A stretch of 32,587 bases of DNA, from positions 1 to 32,587 of IMG/VR virus record IMGVR_UViG_3300032401_000046. The stretch is one strand, 5' to 3'. Under the pieces are notes generated by a model. It ran no database searches, was not told the DNA's origin, and was given only the letters and a program-made list of their open reading frames with translations. Within the stretch, counting starts at the first letter, position 1. The number at the start of each line of letters is the position of its first letter. Source of the DNA: a virus. Below, one piece after another: positions 6,503 to 30,657 of the stretch. The translations under genes and the position numbers were made by a program.

Positions 6503-6779
6503 GGGCTCCTTCGGGAGCTAATTTTTTTGCTGCGGCAAGTATATCATCCTTTGTGTAGATTGCATTATGCACATCTAAATACCCTGAGTCCATTCCGACT
6601 ATATAGCTATCGCAATCAAATTTAAAAACATCGTAAAGTACATACCGATACGTACCTCTGTCTTTTAAATCTCCTTTATATATTTTGTTTGTAACTACAA
6701 AAAAAGCTTTTAATTTATCTTCGTAAGATAACTTTTCCCACCAATCGTTTGCCTCACTTTCGTAAGCTGCGAACGTCAT
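6474..6779 (-). CDS. Conserved phage hypothetical protein
   Basis: 101 residues. ANDWWEKLSYEDKLKAFF and the later GTYRYVLYDVFKFDCDSYIVGMDSGYLDVHNAIY form a pattern I recall from many marine phage hypothetical proteins, but no function is known to me. The protein is acidic and aromatic-rich with no membrane segment. Its end overlaps the HNH/HTH gene by 29 bp. It sits between replication genes and may be an early or regulatory protein, though the sequence does not show this. Confidence 0.65.
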   Translation of the reverse strand: MTFAAYESEANDWWEKLSYEDKLKAFFVVTNKIYKGDLKDRGTYRYVLYDVFKFDCDSYIVGMDSGYLDVHNAIYTKDDILAAAKKLAPEGAHDFTSNDVY

Positions 6780-6791
6780 TTGTAATTAAAC

Positions 6792-7448
6792 TCAATAACC
6801 TCGACCACTCGCACCAATGGTCGCAAGATCTTGTTTAATCTGGTCTATAGATTTTCCAGTACCTTGCCAGTTAGAGATTTCTTGCGCATTAGGCTGTCTC
6901 CCAAGAGAAGCTTGGTAAGAATCTTTAATTGACTGAGTGCCAGATAAAGAGTATGCACTATTTGCTAAACCTTGTTGAATTTCAGGCAAGGACTTACCCG
7001 TACCCACCCAATTTTGAACTTCCTGTTGCTGTGGTGCACGCCCTAAGAAGGTTTGGTAGGAGCTTTTTATACCCTCGGTCTTGGGGTCAGCCAAAGCAGG
7101 TTTAGGCGCTTCAACAGGTTGTTTCGGCGCAAGCGAAGCTAATATTGCGGATAACTGAGATGAATAGTCAGGTCCAGCAGGAGCAGGAGCGGGGCTAGAA
7201 GCAGGAGCTGAAGGAGGAGTAGGAGCAGGTGTTAGAACAGCAGCCCCACCGGGTGACGTGAAGGTAGCTTGTTGTCCGCCTTGACCAGAAGATGCTCCTA
7301 AACGGCCACCTCGTGAACCTTTATTGATCCCAGCAGAGAGTTTTAATTCTGGAAAATAACCGGACAGCACAGATTCTGACTCTTCCTGATTGTCCTCCTG
7401 TGGGGTAAAACCAAAAAAATTACCCGCGAACCGACGACCTGATGGCAT
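6792..7448 (-). CDS. Low-complexity protein with two DUF4214-like repeats
   Basis: 218 residues. The first 130 are Gly/Ser/Pro/Ala-rich and probably disordered (APTPPSAPASSPAPAPAGP). The last 85 contain two copies of a roughly 38-residue unit: IKSSYQTFLGRAPQQQEVQNWVGTGKSLPEIQQGLANS and IKDSYQASLGRQPNAQEISNWQGTGKSIDQIKQDLATI. The pattern Y-x-x-x-LGR-P-x-x-x-E-x-x-x-W resembles DUF4214, found in S-layer, calcium-binding and cyanobacterial surface or linker proteins. In a phage this could be a structural or adhesion part, although it sits in the replication cluster. No signal peptide. Confidence 0.6.
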   Translation of the reverse strand: MPSGRRFAGNFFGFTPQEDNQEESESVLSGYFPELKLSAGINKGSRGGRLGASSGQGGQQATFTSPGGAAVLTPAPTPPSAPASSPAPAPAGPDYSSQLSAILASLAPKQPVEAPKPALADPKTEGIKSSYQTFLGRAPQQQEVQNWVGTGKSLPEIQQGLANSAYSLSGTQSIKDSYQASLGRQPNAQEISNWQGTGKSIDQIKQDLATIGASGRGY

Positions 7449-11624: not shown

Positions 11625-13175
11625 CTAGCGTAAGCACCTCTGTATGACATCAACTGTATCATTTTGATTCTTTAAGTTTACAGAGTAAAGTTCATCACTG
11701 AACATTTTACAAACAGCAGGCGTTGTAGAGTTCACACAAATTGTGCTCCACTGCATTCCAATAGTTTGTTTGAACTTGTTTAAACGATTAATAAAATTAT
11801 CATGTACTTCACTGTGTCCATCAGTAATCATCAAAACATCTGCTCTCTCTTTAATATTAGCTTTATCTAGAGCGTGGGCAAGCACCGCGTTAAAGCTAGT
11901 GCCTCCACCTAGTGTCCAGGTGCCAACAAAGTCGAGTAGTTCTAAATTATTATTCCGGTCAGCACTAAGCGTGACTGAACCTTCAATTCGTGTATCGAAT
12001 AAGTAGATTTGAACACTACGTTTCTCTTTAAGAGCTTGCTCAGCAATAACAAAAGCAATAGCTTTACTCCAAATTTCAGGCTCTCCTCCCATAGAACCAG
12101 ATACATCGATGTACATAACTATCGGTCCTTTACCAATGTCCTTACGGTGTGCTGTGAAATCTTTTGTTAAAAGAGTTTTCTGAGAATATTTGAGGGCAAA
12201 GAGCGCACGACCTTGCTCAGTGCCAGCTAATGCAATTTCACTAGAGAAAGCTTTAGGGACATCATCACTAAATTTTGCCCCCGTAATAGATTCGTATTTA
12301 TCTGTAATTTTTCTTGCTCGTTTCCGTTCTTGCCAAATACGGCGAAGAGCACCTAATTTTTTAATTAATTGTTGAAGTTGTTTGTTATAACTTAAACTCT
12401 TCGCTAGATCTTTCTTTTCCTGTAGGTCTAGTGAGTGTGAGCCTGCACCCGCTTGGCTACCATGAAGTGCTTCAACAGCATCATTTGTTTCCTGACAATT
12501 TTCAAGAGCCTTATCAATAATTTTATGTGACTGACTTTGAATTTTATCCCTCGCTTTTTCTACCGCATCGGATATATCTTGAGCCAGAGCTTTTCCTTCT
12601 CTCCGTAGTTTCTCTGCTTCCGCCCTATCACCCTTTGCTTGAGCTTCTTGGAACTGTTCCCGTAGCTCTCTTAGTTTTTTACCAGCGTCAGTTAAGAGCT
12701 GTACGTCAAATTGACCTTGCTCAATAGCTTCAGTAATAACTTTTGAGAGTTCGTTGAGAATATTAACGGCATTATTACCCGCATTAAACTGGTCACCGAT
12801 GCTCCTATGAAGCAGGGTTGGCCACGCAGCCGCTTGACTTAAGTCTCCCATGATCGCATACCAGATACTGTTCTCCGGTTTAAACCCGCGTGGCACTGCC
12901 TTGGTATCCCCGTCACACATCTTTCTAAAATAATCTTCGTAGTCATCTTCAGTTACTAACCAATTAACATTGTCACCGTTATATAATCTTTCAAATAATT
13001 CTTTGCCAAAACGAGATAACTGTTTGATGTTATAGGAATCAATCAAATAAGTTACTGAGGGACGTGCATCCCTAATAAAGTCTTCCCACAAAAAATCGGC
13101 TAAAGCTGAGCATGAAAGAGTCAGAGGTTCGTTAGCAATTAAACGAATAATCTCGGAGTGCGTTGTGAGGTTCAT
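11625..13175 (-). CDS. VWA-domain protein, ViaA-like
   Basis: Predicted partner of the adjacent AAA+ ATPase. About 516 residues. The N-terminal 340 are helical with a long coiled-coil stretch (ELREQFQEAQAKGDRAEAEKL). The C-terminal von Willebrand A domain has MIDAS residues DVSGSMG (about 357), the downstream Thr of GGGTSF and the Asp of ITDGHSE. GPIVMYIDVSGSMGGEPE... and the short end after the VWA core match E. coli ViaA layout and size (483). I use ATG 13175, four bases after the ATPase stop and next to AAAGAG; a GTG at 13199 would overlap by 20 bp. In E. coli, RavA-ViaA affects respiration, aminoglycoside sensitivity and lipid contacts. Its phage role is unknown. Confidence 0.8.
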   Translation of the reverse strand: MNLTTHSEIIRLIANEPLTLSCSALADFLWEDFIRDARPSVTYLIDSYNIKQLSRFGKELFERLYNGDNVNWLVTEDDYEDYFRKMCDGDTKAVPRGFKPENSIWYAIMGDLSQAAAWPTLLHRSIGDQFNAGNNAVNILNELSKVITEAIEQGQFDVQLLTDAGKKLRELREQFQEAQAKGDRAEAEKLRREGKALAQDISDAVEKARDKIQSQSHKIIDKALENCQETNDAVEALHGSQAGAGSHSLDLQEKKDLAKSLSYNKQLQQLIKKLGALRRIWQERKRARKITDKYESITGAKFSDDVPKAFSSEIALAGTEQGRALFALKYSQKTLLTKDFTAHRKDIGKGPIVMYIDVSGSMGGEPEIWSKAIAFVIAEQALKEKRSVQIYLFDTRIEGSVTLSADRNNNLELLDFVGTWTLGGGTSFNAVLAHALDKANIKERADVLMITDGHSEVHDNFINRLNKFKQTIGMQWSTICVNSTTPAVCKMFSDELYSVNLKNQNDTVDVIQRCLR

Positions 13176-13179
13176 TTGA

Positions 13180-14370
13180 TTACTCTTTACTAAAGTCACT
13201 AATAGCCCGTGTAAGTGTATTGCAGTTGTTTTGTAAATTTTGCTGAAGTTTCACACCTTTAGATCTAGTAGTAATTGACATGCGGAATCGAGTTCCATCA
13301 AGTATCTCACCAACTTTATCTCGTACAGTTGTCATATCTCTATGGTATTTCTTCAATAGAGTAACAAACTCATTTAACTCTCCCAATCCTTTTGCCTGGA
13401 ATTTATGTTGCAGATTTGTATATTCAGCCACTATTCCAGCTGCTGCCCGCTTAGCGTCACTGAAAACATGATCCGCCGTGGGAACTTCCTGATCTAACAC
13501 TTCCAAGATTACCTCCTGATCTTCTTTAGTTTGGTAAACAATATGTATCAAACTGTTGTGCATATGTTCTGGATAAAGCTTATCGTCACCCTGCACTATT
13601 GCCCAAGCTTTTAGAAACTTAAGCACTTGTACGCGGCGACGATCACTAATAAAAATGTTGCGGTTAGCAAGCATTTCCCAGACACTACTGAACCGATCAA
13701 GAAACTCTTCTGAAATTTCAATTGTTTGAGCAGATTCTTGTAGATCTTGTAACTCAGCAAGTGTAATATGCTCCCCAACTTGCGGTCGTTCGTTACAACC
13801 TAGTGCCCATTCATCTAGCTTTCGTTTAGATACAGGTTTACGGAGAAGATCAACCGTGGGGCGGAATAGAAATCTATCGGCAAATGCCTGTAGAGATTCC
13901 TCATCGGGCCAACTGTTTGTAGCAGAAATAATGGACTGAATTGGGGTTTGAACTAAGTCTTTGCCGTTATTGAATGTACGTTCATTCAGCAAAGTTAGTA
14001 GTGAATTTAAGATTGCCGAACTTCCTCTAAAGAGTTCATCCAAAAATCCAATGTGGCTGCTAGGTAAGTAACCGTCTATGTCGCGTGTGTATTCATCTTT
14101 GAGAAGTTTAGTTACAGCAACAGGACCAAATACTTCAGACGGATCTGTTGTTGGAGTCAGTAAATAACCGAAGTAATTTGCTCCGACAATTCCTTTACAG
14201 ATACTTCTAACAAGATCTGATTTACCTGTTCCAGGAACACCCAACAAGAACGCATTTTGCTTGCTTAGAAGTGTTGCTAAAAGACCATCGATAATGTGCT
14301 CACGTTCAAGAGCAGAGTTATTAAGTGCTCCTCGAAAATTTTGAAGCTTGGTGAATAAAGTGTCTTTCAT
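13180..14370 (-). CDS. MoxR-family AAA+ ATPase, RavA-like
   Basis: ATP-driven chaperone-like ATPase of 396 residues. Walker A is GVPGTGKSD (44-52), followed by TDPSEVFGPVAVTKLLKDE and SGYLP-like DGYLPSSH. Walker B is IGFLDELFRGSSAILNSLL (about 107) and ends in NERTFNNG; sensor 1 is SATNSWP (N152). The order PEEVFGP...GYLP...FLDE...ILN-LL...NER-F-NG is diagnostic of RavA within MoxR proteins. The C-terminus is shorter than RavA (498) and ends in helical sequence. Cyanomyoviruses carry a different MoxR-type gene annotated cobS; this one looks closer to RavA. It is followed immediately by the ViaA-like gene, as in bacterial ravA-viaA operons. Confidence 0.85.
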   Translation of the reverse strand: MKDTLFTKLQNFRGALNNSALEREHIIDGLLATLLSKQNAFLLGVPGTGKSDLVRSICKGIVGANYFGYLLTPTTDPSEVFGPVAVTKLLKDEYTRDIDGYLPSSHIGFLDELFRGSSAILNSLLTLLNERTFNNGKDLVQTPIQSIISATNSWPDEESLQAFADRFLFRPTVDLLRKPVSKRKLDEWALGCNERPQVGEHITLAELQDLQESAQTIEISEEFLDRFSSVWEMLANRNIFISDRRRVQVLKFLKAWAIVQGDDKLYPEHMHNSLIHIVYQTKEDQEVILEVLDQEVPTADHVFSDAKRAAAGIVAEYTNLQHKFQAKGLGELNEFVTLLKKYHRDMTTVRDKVGEILDGTRFRMSITTRSKGVKLQQNLQNNCNTLTRAISDFSKE

Positions 14371-20360: not shown

Positions 20361-20428
20361 CCAGCAATAGAGCTGGTAGCTAACAACGAGTGAGGGTGAA
20401 TCCCTCGGGCTGAGTTAGTTAAACTCAG
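20361..20428. repeat. Three consecutive small hairpins
   Basis: CCAGC/GCTGG (20361-20376), GAGGG/CCCTC (20392-20406) and CTGAGTT/AACTCAG (20410-20428, 7 bp with loop AGTTA). They lie in the leader of the 20343 gene and before the plus-strand -10 at 20441. Confidence 0.5.
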
Positions 20429-20440
20429 CAGGAGAGAATC

Positions 20441-20446
20441 TATAAT
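20441..20446 (+). promoter_or_regulatory. Candidate promoter (-10 TATAAT) for the structured RNA
   Basis: Perfect TATAAT. The -35 position holds only GTTAAA-like sequence. Transcription would start near 20453, at the first of four spaced TGATC words, and run into the structured region that ends with a terminator at 21457. Confidence 0.45.
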
Positions 20447-20450
20447 CTCA

Positions 20451-20486
20451 TGATCATCTATGATCTAATGTGATCCTTAATTGATC
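20451..20486. repeat. Four phased TGATC words
   Basis: TGATC at 20451, 20461, 20471 and 20482 (steps of 10, 10 and 11 bp, about one DNA turn). A fifth GATC is at 20510. The first overlaps the likely start of RNA, as an operator would. Confidence 0.7.
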
Positions 20487-20567
20487 TTGCCTGCTGACAA
20501 GTTACAGCAGATCTGCAACCGCTCAGAGTAAACTTGTCCGGGGAAACTTAAAACAAATTGCCAGGCA

Positions 20568-20727
20568 TGTAGTTAGTTACAGTGCACAGAATGAATCACT
20601 GGCTGATAATTAATCCCGCCATCGCACGGAAGCGCCGTGGTGAGGGACTAGTGTCCAGTGGCCAGCGTATCTGCATTAGGAGCAGGTACTCTGGACAAAG
20701 AATCTGCGGTAACTGTAACTAACTACA
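20568..20727. repeat. 16-bp perfect inverted repeat
   Basis: TGTAGTTAGTTACAGT (20568-20583) and ACTGTAACTAACTACA (20712-20727), 128 bases apart. Encloses the 20625 and 20652 hairpins, so it would close a multibranch RNA domain. Confidence 0.9.
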
Positions 20728-20821
20728 ACCGGACAAGGGTTGTATTTAGCTGCAACCTGACGAGGGTTGCTAACATTTAGCGTCGCTACTTTGCCTTAGT
20801 TAAAGACAAGATGCCCGCTGA

Positions 20822-20886
20822 CATACAGTGCAGGGTGTTTATCCCTAGGGCCTACTTACGTTCGGCAACATTGCCCACACTGTATG
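20822..20886. repeat. 9-bp stem with two inner hairpins
   Basis: CATACAGTG (20822-20830) pairs with CACTGTATG (20878-20886). Inside are AGGG/CCCT (20832-20846) and GGCA/TGCC (20864-20875), a three-way junction shape. Confidence 0.7.
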
Positions 20887-20898
20887 GGAGATTATATA

Positions 20899-20961
20899 TA
20901 ACTAAGGGCAGTACATTTCATACTAACCTCGCAGTGTTCTTACTACACTTGCCCTTAGTTA
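20899..20961. repeat. 12-bp perfect inverted repeat
   Basis: TAACTAAGGGCA (20899-20910) and TGCCCTTAGTTA (20950-20961), 39 bases apart, in the same gene-free region. Confidence 0.9.
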
Positions 20962-21214
20962 AGTTGTCAAGGTTCGCAAACCTAGAGCCTTACCATTCCC
21001 GCCGCTCACGTTGGGGCACACCATGCCTGCCATTCCCTACAATTCGGGGAGGTTCTCCCTACCATCAGGGACAGGCGCGGGGCCCGTTCGGCCGTCGCGG
21101 GTTGGTTCGGTTGTCTAGTTTCGGCCGGGGCTCTCGCCTCCGACTCCCTAAAGGTAAGGGGTAGGCGGTTCGCCCGTCAACCCCTCAAGCCATCAGCTCT
21201 CCTTATGGTTTGGC

Positions 21215-21307
21215 ATGGAGCGCAGGCAACGCATCCAGAAATGGAACCGCGCCCGCCAGCGCACGCGTAGATACCATAGGCTCGGCCGCTTTGTCAAGCA
21301 ATCTTAA
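21215..21307 (+). CDS. Possible 30-residue very basic peptide
   Basis: MERRQRIQKWNRARQRTRRY followed by HRLGRFVKQS and a stop. Eleven of 30 residues are Arg or Lys. If translated it could bind nucleic acid. There is no Shine-Dalgarno, and it lies in the GC-rich end of the candidate RNA, just before the terminator, so it may be chance. It is the most protein-like frame in the region. Confidence 0.25.
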   Translation: MERRQRIQKWNRARQRTRRYHRLGRFVKQS

Positions 21308-21423
21308 AAAGTTGTAACGTGCCTCACTAAATGTAAAACTACATGAAACTAAATGTTTGCCTGTGGAAAAACGTGATAGCTATTTGATATAACTAACTCC
21401 TGGGCTATGTATAGCTCACTACT

Positions 21424-21457
21424 GGCCGCAATCTGCCCGCAAAACGGCCTTTTTTTT
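21424..21457 (+). terminator. Rho-independent terminator, plus strand
   Basis: GGCCG (21424-21428) and CGGCC (21445-21449) followed by eight Ts. No recognised plus-strand protein gene ends upstream, so it is best explained as the end of the non-coding transcript. Confidence 0.65.
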
Positions 21458-21740
21458 ATATATGGGCTTTGATCGACGGGGTGGGCGAGAACACTTTCAT
21501 AATCTTGCTGGCAAAGTGGGGTGAAACCTCCTGTATGTTAATAAACTGACATTTTCCACGCGGACCCCGAAATCCGGTTTCATCGCCCGAAACGACTCAA
21601 AAACTGAGTTTTACCACCCCAGAACGGGGTAGGATGCCTTTTTTAAAATTTTTTTCCCGCGTGGGGGACCTAAAAATTTTTTTCCGTTCGCGCTGTTCGA
21701 GTAGAATAATTCGAGGTCAAGACTGCTTTTTAGACTCAAA
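21458..21740 (+). other. Non-coding gap before the 21741 gene
   Basis: No gene seen. It contains ACTCA/TGAGT (about 21595-21610), a second terminator-like ACCCC/GGGGT hairpin (21616-21630) followed by T6 at 21639, then two A/T tracts (around 21644-21655 and 21671-21682) of the sort that bend DNA or act as an UP element, and a TAGAAT box near 21703 that could drive the following gene. Confidence 0.4.
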
Positions 21741-22562
21741 GTGGATCCTTCAGCGCTTTTGAACGACGTACTGCAGTACAACCAGGGTAATTTGTTTACC
21801 CGAGCAGGAAATCCTCAAAATTTTTCGGGTCGGCGCCAACCCTTTATTGCCTCTGACCCGGTTCCTGCAAACGTCGCCGCTGAAATCGAGGCTTTGAGCC
21901 AAGCAGTTACTCGAACTCCGGGGCAGTTAGATCTCCCTTTGTATCCACCCGAGATAACTCCTACTCCTGCAAACGCAGAATATTTCCAAGGTAATCTTTT
22001 TACACGAGCCGGGAACCCTCAAAATTTCCGCAGGGGACAACCCTTTATAGCTTTTGACCCTGTTGTACCTAATCCAACCGTTGTTGAAGAAATCAACGCT
22101 TTAGCTTCCCGCGTGGCTCCAGGCCAGTTAAGTATCCCAGGGTTACAAATAGGGAATAATCCTTATCGCCCTGGTGCAACTATTCGGGCTACCGGACCTG
22201 GAATGGCTGATATTCCTGAACTACACCGTTTTACTGAATACGCTCCCGAACGGCAAGCTTTGAATTTGTTAAATAGTTTTATTGCCCAGCAGGGTAGCCG
22301 GCGAATTCCTGCGGCTGTTGTTGAAGATGTTGCTCGGGTAGCTGCACCTGCTGCTGCAGTTGGCGCTAGTGCAGTGTTGAGCCGAGCTATTCCTGTTGTT
22401 GCACGGATGGGCGCACCTGGCGCTGCTGCTGGATTAGGACTTGCTGCAGGTATCGCCGCCAGTAAAGTCCTTGCTGATTCTGGCGCTGCGGATAAAGTTG
22501 GTAACGAACTGAAGTACATGGCCAAGTTACTCGGCAGAGGAAAGCTTCCGTATACTCGTTAA
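21741..22562 (+). CDS. Ala/Pro-rich protein with internal duplication, possible virion protein
   Basis: 273 residues, starting GTG (no clear Shine-Dalgarno). Residues about 15-45 (QGNLFTRAGNPQNF...QPFIASDPV) recur at about 82-112 (QGNLFTRAGNPQNFRRGQPF, then IAFDPV), each followed by a helix (EIEALSQAV / EINALASRV) and P-G-Q-L. From about 190 the chain is Ala/Val/Gly-rich (AAAVGASAVLSRAIPVVARM, then GAPGAAAGLGLAAGIAAS), which is hydrophobic enough to insert in a membrane. The duplicated Asn-Pro-Gln modules plus hydrophobic end suggest a structural or ejected protein. No family recognised. Confidence 0.6.
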   Translation: MDPSALLNDVLQYNQGNLFTRAGNPQNFSGRRQPFIASDPVPANVAAEIEALSQAVTRTPGQLDLPLYPPEITPTPANAEYFQGNLFTRAGNPQNFRRGQPFIAFDPVVPNPTVVEEINALASRVAPGQLSIPGLQIGNNPYRPGATIRATGPGMADIPELHRFTEYAPERQALNLLNSFIAQQGSRRIPAAVVEDVARVAAPAAAVGASAVLSRAIPVVARMGAPGAAAGLGLAAGIAASKVLADSGAADKVGNELKYMAKLLGRGKLPYTR

Positions 22563-23601: not shown

Positions 23602-23677
23602 GCGCGTCTAGCCATCTGGTGAAAGCAGCGAACTCATAATTCGCGGTAGGTCAGTTCGATCCTGACGACGCGCACCA
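23602..23677 (+). tRNA. tRNA with CAT anticodon (Met elongator or Ile2)
   Basis: 76 nt with encoded CCA. Acceptor GCGCGTC/GACGCGC, anticodon arm GCGAA-ctCATaa-TTCGC, T arm GTCAG-TTCGATC-CTGAC. The D-arm is weak (GC/GC only). The anticodon stem lacks initiator GGG/CCC pairs, so it is not an initiator. Could read AUG, or AUA if lysidine-modified. Confidence 0.9.
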
Positions 23678-23710: not shown

Positions 23711-23786
23711 GGCCGAGTAGTCCAACGGAAGAGATAAGCGACTTAAAATCGCTCCAGTGTGGGTTCGAATCCCACCTCGGCTACCA
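23711..23786 (+). tRNA. tRNA-Leu(UAA) with short variable region
   Basis: 76 nt with encoded CCA. Acceptor GGCCGAG/CTCGGCT (first pair G-U), anticodon arm AGCGA-ctTAAaa-TCGCT, T arm GTGGG-TTCGAAT-CCCAC, discriminator A. Only five bases (CCAGT) separate the anticodon and T stems, whereas bacterial tRNA-Leu normally has a long variable arm. Confidence 0.92.
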
Positions 23787-28915: not shown

Positions 28916-29047
28916 ATGTATAAATTATTTAAGATTTTAAAAATGGGTAAAACGGGTGTGTTTCATGTTGAGTCTCATGAGTCTTATAACGAGCGCGTTC
29001 TACTAGCAGTAATTGGTAAGAGCTGTGGGCGCAAGCTAGTGACCTAG
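28916..29047 (+). CDS. Small basic hypothetical protein
   Basis: 43 residues: MYKLFKILKMGKTGVFHVES then HESYNERVLLAVIGKSCGRKLVT. GGAAG lies upstream; an ATG at 28943 is also possible. Shares the CTAG at its end with the convergent 29044 gene. Unknown. Confidence 0.4.
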   Translation: MYKLFKILKMGKTGVFHVESHESYNERVLLAVIGKSCGRKLVT

Positions 29048-30657
29048 CGTCCAAACAACAGCTCAGAGATGCCAAACTCACCCCGACTCGGATTAAAACG
29101 TTCTTTTATTAGATCAATTCGTTTTTGCAGTTCGTTTCGATTTTGACGCTGCTCCATTGTTTTTCTTTGCTGTGGGTTTAAAGATGTAACTTGCGGCATT
29201 GTCGTTTGCTCTGAAGATCTAAAATCAGGATTTGCATAGTTTGTTCTAGGAGCAGTGCCTATGGTTTGCCTTAGTTTTGAGATAATTCCTTCTCCCGTTT
29301 GTTGCCGCGATACTTCGTCGAGAGCATTTGCGGCTCGTATTGTAGTTAAACCCAAAGCAATTCCTGGGACAATAGGAGCTACGGCAGGTGCTGCTGCGAT
29401 GGCACCGCCCGTTGCAAGTGCTGTTGGAATTCCGCCAGCAAAATCACCGGCCATACGCATAACTCCCTGTAAAGGTCTACCGCTGTAAAAATCTTGTACT
29501 ACTTCACGCGAAGGTATTAGATCTGCTGCACTAACACCTACGGCACTCCTAAAACCTGCTCCCAGATTTCCCCGGCCTTCTAAAATGTTCTTACCGATTA
29601 AATAGTTCCTAGTACCGACAGCTTTTTGAAATGGTGTGAAATCGGGAGCAGGATTTGTATTTAAAACACTAGGCGCGGTGGGATCCCCCGCACGTTGTAA
29701 AAATTCTGTATAAGGTTGTAAAGGAAGGTTTCTTTCGTTCCCTGTAACAAAACGCTGAACGTCTTTAGATCCTCCGCCGTAACCACTTGAAAACCCTTGC
29801 GAACTTAACGGGCCCGCTAAACCAGCTGTTTCATATAAACTGGATCGCCAATTTGGATTTGAAGCCGCTACTTGCTCGACTGGAGTGAGTGTCGATACCC
29901 CGCCAAATGATCCTTGTGTCTCTAAAATTTTATTTTTAAATTCATCTAATATACTTTCTTTAAAGCCAACGGGTTTTTGTGTAACGTACCCACGTTCTTG
30001 CCAAGTTTTAGGCGTTTGTGGTTGACCACTGTAGTCACCAATATAGTCAGATTGATTTTTTATTTCGTCAATTTTTTCTTGTAACTTTGCTGGGCTTTTA
30101 CCGTAATAAGGATCGTTTTCTTTTAACTGTTTTATTTCTGTTTCAATTCGATCTTGTAGGTTAGGTCCGGTTGCAAAGCTATAATCGTTTCCTGCATTAA
30201 GAGGTACTCTAAAATCAACAAGAAATTGTTTAGCAGCAGGAGTTAAACTTGACGAACCAAAGTCTTTTGGTAAAGCACCAAAAGTCATTTGCCAAGGGCG
30301 CCCAGTTGCAGGATTAATTATTCCCGGTAAATCACTAGTTTTATAGTCATATCCTATTTGTTGATCAATTCCGCCAACAGAAAAATTTTGACGACCAGTG
30401 TCTGGTCTTAAAGAAGATTGATTTAAATTAGTTGAAGCTTCAACAGCAGTTAGTAATTCTTTATCTGTAACTGGTATTCCCTTGCGCCCGACAATATTTC
30501 CTTCTCCGTAATAATCAAGAATTTCTTGATCAGTAGTTGTATTACGTAAGTAATTAGTTAAAGCATTATCAACTGCCTGACGCATTTCACCTTGTGCTTC
30601 GGGTGTTTTTGATGCGTTTCCTAAGATTGCATCTAAAAATTGTTTCCCAAAATCCAT
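29044..30657 (-). CDS. Large hypothetical protein, possible virion component
   Basis: 537 residues. Helical acidic N-terminus, several Pro/Gly/Asn-rich loops with Y-G/Y-D repeats (DYKTSDLPGIINPATGRPW; NDPYYGKSP), a Gly/Ala-rich hydrophobic stretch (about residues 405-440, PTALATGGAIAAAPAVAPIV then PGIALGL) and a basic C-terminal helix (MEQRQNRNELQKRIDLIKER). A hydrophobic Gly/Ala segment in a long soluble protein recalls phage ejection or inner-virion proteins. No motif supports a named family. The gene lies between the sugar-modification genes. Confidence 0.6.
   Translation of the reverse strand: MDFGKQFLDAILGNASKTPEAQGEMRQAVDNALTNYLRNTTTDQEILDYYGEGNIVGRKGIPVTDKELLTAVEASTNLNQSSLRPDTGRQNFSVGGIDQQIGYDYKTSDLPGIINPATGRPWQMTFGALPKDFGSSSLTPAAKQFLVDFRVPLNAGNDYSFATGPNLQDRIETEIKQLKENDPYYGKSPAKLQEKIDEIKNQSDYIGDYSGQPQTPKTWQERGYVTQKPVGFKESILDEFKNKILETQGSFGGVSTLTPVEQVAASNPNWRSSLYETAGLAGPLSSQGFSSGYGGGSKDVQRFVTGNERNLPLQPYTEFLQRAGDPTAPSVLNTNPAPDFTPFQKAVGTRNYLIGKNILEGRGNLGAGFRSAVGVSAADLIPSREVVQDFYSGRPLQGVMRMAGDFAGGIPTALATGGAIAAAPAVAPIVPGIALGLTTIRAANALDEVSRQQTGEGIISKLRQTIGTAPRTNYANPDFRSSEQTTMPQVTSLNPQQRKTMEQRQNRNELQKRIDLIKERFNPSRGEFGISELLFGR

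Follow-up and report, generated by a model that had tools for sequence, protein, structure and literature searches.

The stretch of DNA analysed here (the window, 32,587 bases) represents the whole of the IMG/VR virus record IMGVR_UViG_3300032401_000046. Its leftward genes end at position 20367 and its rightward genes start at position 21741, leaving between them a gene-free gap of about 1.37 kb (20368-21740). The first-pass annotation of this DNA had pointed to a gene-free kilobase as the putative seat of a giant phage noncoding RNA located upstream of two tRNA genes, and both the gap and, with ARAGORN, the two tRNA genes are confirmed. Among the related genomes whose flanks were compared, the RNA consistently occupies the junction of the leftward and rightward gene blocks, and tRNA-Leu(TAA), often accompanied by tRNA-Met, occurs downstream of it in 15 genomes. 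The features of the locus are listed below, with a strand for those to which one is assigned.

20385-20440, minus strand: conserved leader made of two covarying hairpins (GAGGG..CCCTC and CTGAG..CTCAG) and GGAGAGAATC
20441-20446, plus strand: TATAAT, present in the window, not conserved and not counted as a promoter
20452-20486: four GATC words spaced by 10, 10 and 11 nt
20568-20583 with 20712-20727: helix P1 of the 5′ core, 16 bp, perfect, enclosing P2 and P3
20598-20660: helix P2, with a terminal hairpin (20625-20629 with 20635-20639) and two-sided changes in 13 of its 16 pairs
20662-20673 with 20683-20694: helix P3, a hairpin with two-sided changes in 6 of its 8 pairs
20725-20785: twin hairpins, the second formed by 20752-20757 with 20765-20770
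20759-20762 (loop) with 20781-20784: pseudoknot, covarying as GACG/CGTC, GACA/TGTC and GGCG/CGCC
20899-20910 with 20950-20961: 12-bp hairpin of the variable middle region, perfect in the window
20979-20985 with 21115-21121: long-range helix of the 3′ core, in which the pair 20979/21121 is A-U in 13, C-G in 7 and U-G in 2 copies
20998-21002 with 21097-21101: inner helix of the 3′ core, E close to 0 against 50 simulated alignments
21144-21147 with 21176-21179, and 21249-21253 with 21264-21268: smaller helices, from the consensus fold of 26 genomes without G-U pairs
21300-21425: variable region, missing or substituted in several relatives, with a column identity of about 0.60 and an occupancy of 0.55-0.73
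21428-21545: conserved 3′ element, TGCCCGCAA..CC-T8-ATATA..CGACG..GCGAGAA..TGTCA..ATA
23602-23677, plus strand: tRNA-Met(CAT), downstream neighbour of the RNA locus
23711-23786, plus strand: tRNA-Leu(TAA), downstream neighbour of the RNA locus

With respect to the phages that carry the locus, a related genome of 87 kb (G003) encodes a D5-type primase besides a terminase, an endolysin and virion proteins; among isolates, this primase has its best-ranked match in Synechococcus phage S-EIV1. A cyanobacterial host is likely, because this primase, the gene layout and a protein with 76% identity all point to S-EIV1. The protein in question, 537 aa long and encoded at 29044-30657 of the window, is 76% identical over 355 aa to an S-EIV1 protein annotated as sulfate adenylyltransferase and has no PHROG match; most relatives encode a member of the same protein cluster immediately past the RNA, on the opposite strand. 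The 273-aa product of the gene next to the gap (21741-22562) contains an internal repeat (QYNQGNLFTRAGNPQNF / EYFQGNLFTRAGNPQNF) and has a partial match to Synechococcus phage S-SRM01. The leftward operon includes, at 11625-14370, a large protein which looks VWA-like by eye and adjoins a MoxR-like ATPase (PHROG 'ATPase').

Homologues of the locus were identified by pattern scans in 39 records, i.e., 38 IMG/VR contigs and one contig of a metagenome-assembled genome (MAG), some of them near-identical to each other. A degenerate pattern derived from the second twin hairpin retrieved five locus-bearing contigs, the closest with 88% identity and the others with about 70-85% over the aligned pieces; patterns from further conserved words yielded more homologues, and that of the 3′ element gave 31 matches in viral contigs, of which all those not retrieved before proved homologous, together with the one in the MAG contig. 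Twenty-eight near-full-length copies, with pairwise identities of 41-98%, were aligned. The conserved unit extends from near 20385, in the leader of the left gene, to about 21545 and is broader than the limits originally given (20441-21457). The sole match in bacterial genomes, L137 (CAILMG010000133.1), resides on a 3.6-kb contig of a Methylococcus MAG and is probably a misbinned phage fragment. Another match, L111 (G014) at 6714-7281, aligns with no more than a portion of the profile's 3′ half and was set aside; it possibly represents a shortened or chimaeric RNA. Three divergent members gave no blastn match in 50,697 isolated phage genomes, and Rfam returned nothing real for the window at the gathering threshold or even at E≤10, apart from chance matches, e.g., to miRNA and snoRNA models. 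No description of the RNA was found in the open-access literature, subscription papers and preprints being largely outside this search.

Compared to dinucleotide shuffles, the segment 20441-20990 folds with z-scores of -5.9 on the plus and -6.3 on the minus strand, and the segment 20990-21460 with a z-score of only about -2. The perfect inverted repeats of 16, 12 and 9 bp described in the first-pass annotation do occur, the longest as helix P1, the second as the hairpin of the middle region and the third at 20822-20830/20878-20886. The tandem twin hairpins are equally real, both being formed by a 27-nt tandem repeat (20714-20767). A 7-nt complementarity between a loop and a distal segment turned out to comprise 9 nt in the window (20533-20541/20729-20737); most relatives lack it, by eye, and it was rejected as a meaningful contact.

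Helix P1 is kept in all genomes of the alignment, but its sequence is nearly invariant among 22 genomes (96.7% of cells paired) and it therefore proves little by covariation. Applied to 22 copies of 20566-20793, RNAalifold predicts 35 pairs, 20 of them with two-sided changes; taken with the second twin hairpin and the pseudoknot, the 5′ structure amounts to 45 pairs, 28 with two-sided changes, in the 22 genomes. These 45 pairs are formed in 90.2% of cells, versus 28-39% with slid partners, and reach a covariation score of 0.347, versus 0.144 ± 0.010 in shuffles. One U-G pair within P2 is invariant. No consensus structure emerges overall from the variable middle region, where some relatives show, by eye, a hairpin resembling 20899-20961; G010 carries a G-C to C-G swap in it, and G005 lacks it.

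In the 3′ core, the long-range helix 20979/21121 encloses the helix 20998/21097 and further helices up to position 21092. The inner helix occurs as CCCGC/GCGGG, UCCGC/GCGGA, UAAGC/GCUUG, CUCGC/GCGAG and other variants, and ranks, together with the pseudoknot (20758-20762 with 20781-20785), at the top of the helices scored against tree-simulated alignments. Two-sided changes affect 37 pairs and 133 cells in the 5′ core (null maximum 12 and 31), and 24 pairs and 75 cells in the 3′ core (null maximum 10 and 23), the maxima being those of 30 alignments simulated along the tree and folded de novo. The same alignments served both to derive the consensus structures and to score them. Only the simulated-alignment null includes a new round of folding and thereby corrects for this; because it repeats the structure search, it provides the main support for a conserved structure. 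Covariation thus places both cores far beyond the tree-based expectation. Judged from the aligned copies, the locus has a conserved secondary structure, including a covarying pseudoknot, with helices kept by compensatory change and a shape preserved more than its sequence.

An insertion of about 245 nt occurs in a peripheral part of G002, the 3′ cores of G009, G011, L121 and L126 are shortened, and the group of L117 possesses a different hairpin 2 that, by eye, retains the GACG/CGTC contact. Sequence comparison indicates that the peripheral parts are exchanged between relatives, i.e., that the RNA is modular.

A protein-coding or pseudogene origin of the region would have to rely on an open reading frame of 117 aa at 20811-21164. 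Compared to the 85-88% identical copy in G005, this frame is interrupted by indels of 1, 1, 6, 4, 3 and 1 nt, and no open reading frame is kept across the genomes at the RNA locus. The frame was accordingly discarded as a gene and a coding region appears extremely improbable; protein conservation, looked for across the relatives, was not found, in agreement with the noncoding nature initially proposed. The locus thereby combines covariation beyond phylogeny with the absence of a conserved reading frame, as expected of a large structured noncoding RNA.

The borders of the RNA are less sharply drawn. The initial proposal of a plus-strand transcript starting at a TATAAT box and ending at a terminator at 21457 holds as far as both the TATAAT and a run of eight U residues are present in the window; the comparison supports neither the box, which is absent in relatives, nor the terminator hairpin, and it does not establish the plus strand. 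On the left side, the leader hairpins (20391-20440) are more stable on the minus strand in 24/24 genomes, with mean z-scores of -4.0 versus -2.4 on the plus strand. A second copy of these hairpins, at 1160-1273 of L117, precedes another leftward gene without any RNA body, suggesting that the leader module moves independently of the RNA. Because of this RNA-free copy and of the better minus-strand fold, 20385-20440 probably serves the leftward gene as its 5′ leader, outside of the giant RNA; since the combination of leader and left gene is found free of the body in L117, the body is regarded as a separate module. Nearly all relatives that hold the adjacent region display several GATC words at a spacing of about 10 nt, which could form an operator in phase with the helical turn of the DNA. 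The region separating the leader hairpins from the RNA is thus a candidate divergent promoter/operator, shared by both sides.

On the right side, the T8 run of the 3′ element is kept in 33/33 aligned copies, which share 25 invariant columns, and RNAalifold predicts no more than 3 pairs, all of them lacking two-sided changes. The GGCCG..CGGCC hairpin preceding the U8 run is private to the window, most relatives having no stem at this place and the rest unrelated stems of 4-5 bp, near chance level. The conserved U8 run is probably not a terminator, because the hairpin is not conserved and 90 conserved, structure-poor bases follow, and it was rejected as such. In a few genomes, TGCCCGCAA looks able to pair with the downstream TTGCGGG, but this fails across the alignment. 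The 3′ element is probably a DNA or protein-binding element, and it may act as a phage promoter, origin or packaging signal at the early/late junction. With respect to transcription, it may mark the end of the RNA, the start of a leftward RNA or an element of the late genes. A weak match (E 0.003) occurs in S-EIV1 (L144, 4938-5027) at the corresponding junction. As a whole, the comparison of relatives establishes no conserved promoter or terminator for the RNA.

The strand signals are conflicting. In helices chosen without G-U pairs, i.e., from a strand-neutral fold, the whole body shows 112 G-U versus 96 A-C cells, which favours the plus strand with p 0.04-0.06 if these non-independent cells are treated as independent; most of the excess comes from the 5′ core, and much of it rests on one invariant U-G column. 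The hairpin 21249-21268, with 21 A-C versus 2 G-U, leans to the minus strand, as do the folding energies and z-scores, compared up to the last segments, and the loop composition of the 3′ core. A slight preference is given to the plus strand, because the left gene appears to have a leader of its own.

The interpretation somewhat favoured here is that of a standalone noncoding RNA, large (about 0.8-1.0 kb) and structured, with its own transcription unit and a trans-acting scaffold role during infection. The RNA would be encoded between leftward replication genes and rightward genes in a phage lineage probably infecting picocyanobacteria; its separate transcription would, in the simplest case, start in the GATC-repeat region and proceed rightward. 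It would fold into two cores, one of them pseudoknotted, and swappable peripheral modules, and could act in trans as a scaffold, in the form of a large RNA or ribonucleoprotein particle, as proposed for GOLLD and ROOL. The conflicting strand signals, the lack of an established promoter or terminator and the occurrence of S-EIV1 without the RNA body all count against it. The leading rival, to which a clearly lower though still substantial probability is attached, assumes that the same RNA is made leftward, starting at the 3′ element as a promoter (TATATA-A8 on the minus strand), and serves as a structured 5′ leader of about 1 kb for the early/replication operon, controlling early transcription or translation in cis, e.g., as an antitermination or processing RNA. 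It accounts for the minus-strand preference of the leader hairpins in all 24 genomes, the lower minus-strand energy of the 5′ body in 22/26, the 40% unpaired A and lower consensus energy of the 3′ core on that strand, a 3′ element conserved without RNA structure, as expected of a promoter, and the weak match to this element beside leftward genes in S-EIV1. It is at odds with the leader and left gene that move without the body in L117 and with an overall G-U/A-C balance that does not favour the minus strand, and the minus-strand promoter is itself a candidate.

That the structure acts as DNA, i.e., as a replication origin, a packaging site or another element with folding single strands, would agree with the divergent junction, the conserved but structure-poor 3′ element and the conflicting strands of pairing. 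This reading seems improbable, as some 100 nested or long-range pairs and a pseudoknot over 0.7 kb, together with modular replacement, would be typical of RNA, and P2 contains the invariant U-G pair.

If the standalone RNA is accepted, the locus adds a new candidate, of about 0.8-1.1 kb and present at the same junction in about 40 related phage contigs, to the small set of giant phage RNAs without known function. Phages are known to have very few classes of RNA that approach 1 kb. The family is absent from Rfam, to which it would be an addition. Independent of GOLLD and ROOL and represented by a deep alignment, with a candidate structure supported by covariation and a probable host of culturable type, it would offer a second test bed for the reasons behind giant RNAs in phages and for how common RNA cages are as a solution.

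GOLLD is a large RNA (often >800 nt) borne by phages and prophages, often near tRNA genes, with conserved and variable parts and without known function; ROOL, likewise large and described as ornate, occurs in phages and prophages close to tRNA islands, and both form RNA-only cages (PMC12286853). In this respect, the present RNA resembles GOLLD by its size, its phage location, the downstream tRNA-Leu/Met of 15 genomes and its conserved and variable parts, and ROOL as a large phage-borne RNA in a tRNA neighbourhood. The covariance models of GOLLD, ROOL, OLE and HEARO, the last two being large structured RNAs of bacteria, matched neither the window at E≤10 nor eight further loci at E≤2. Membership of GOLLD or ROOL, one of the two possibilities raised beforehand, has thus found no support in the window or in the relatives, and a very divergent member of either family, which size, phage genome, tRNA neighbourhood and pseudoknot might suggest, is highly improbable. 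The other possibility, a giant phage noncoding RNA of a new class, accords with the compensatory helices, the lack of a conserved frame and the lack of a match to known families. A function similar to that of GOLLD and ROOL is proposed because of the size, the phage location, the tRNA neighbourhood and the complexity of the RNA, and a scaffold role is put forward by this analogy with modest confidence; a new giant, pseudoknotted and modular class, assembling into a large particle of RNA or ribonucleoprotein during the infection of cyanobacteria, is suggested only tentatively. The lytic phage ICP1 produces, from an ORF-less gap of about 1 kb, an orf-less transcript of about 800 nt, its most abundant one, likened by its authors to GOLLD and ROOL (PMC7567579). 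The gap described here is of the same kind but belongs to a different phage, and the window locus has no blastn match among isolated phages. The RNA body was not detected in the gap of about 430 nt of S-EIV1 (KJ410740), the nearest isolate found, which nevertheless shares with the carrier phages a similar gene layout, a divergent junction, the 76% identical protein and the weak match to the 3′ element. The best reading of these likenesses and differences is a new class of large phage noncoding RNA, unrelated in sequence to GOLLD and ROOL but similar to them in kind.
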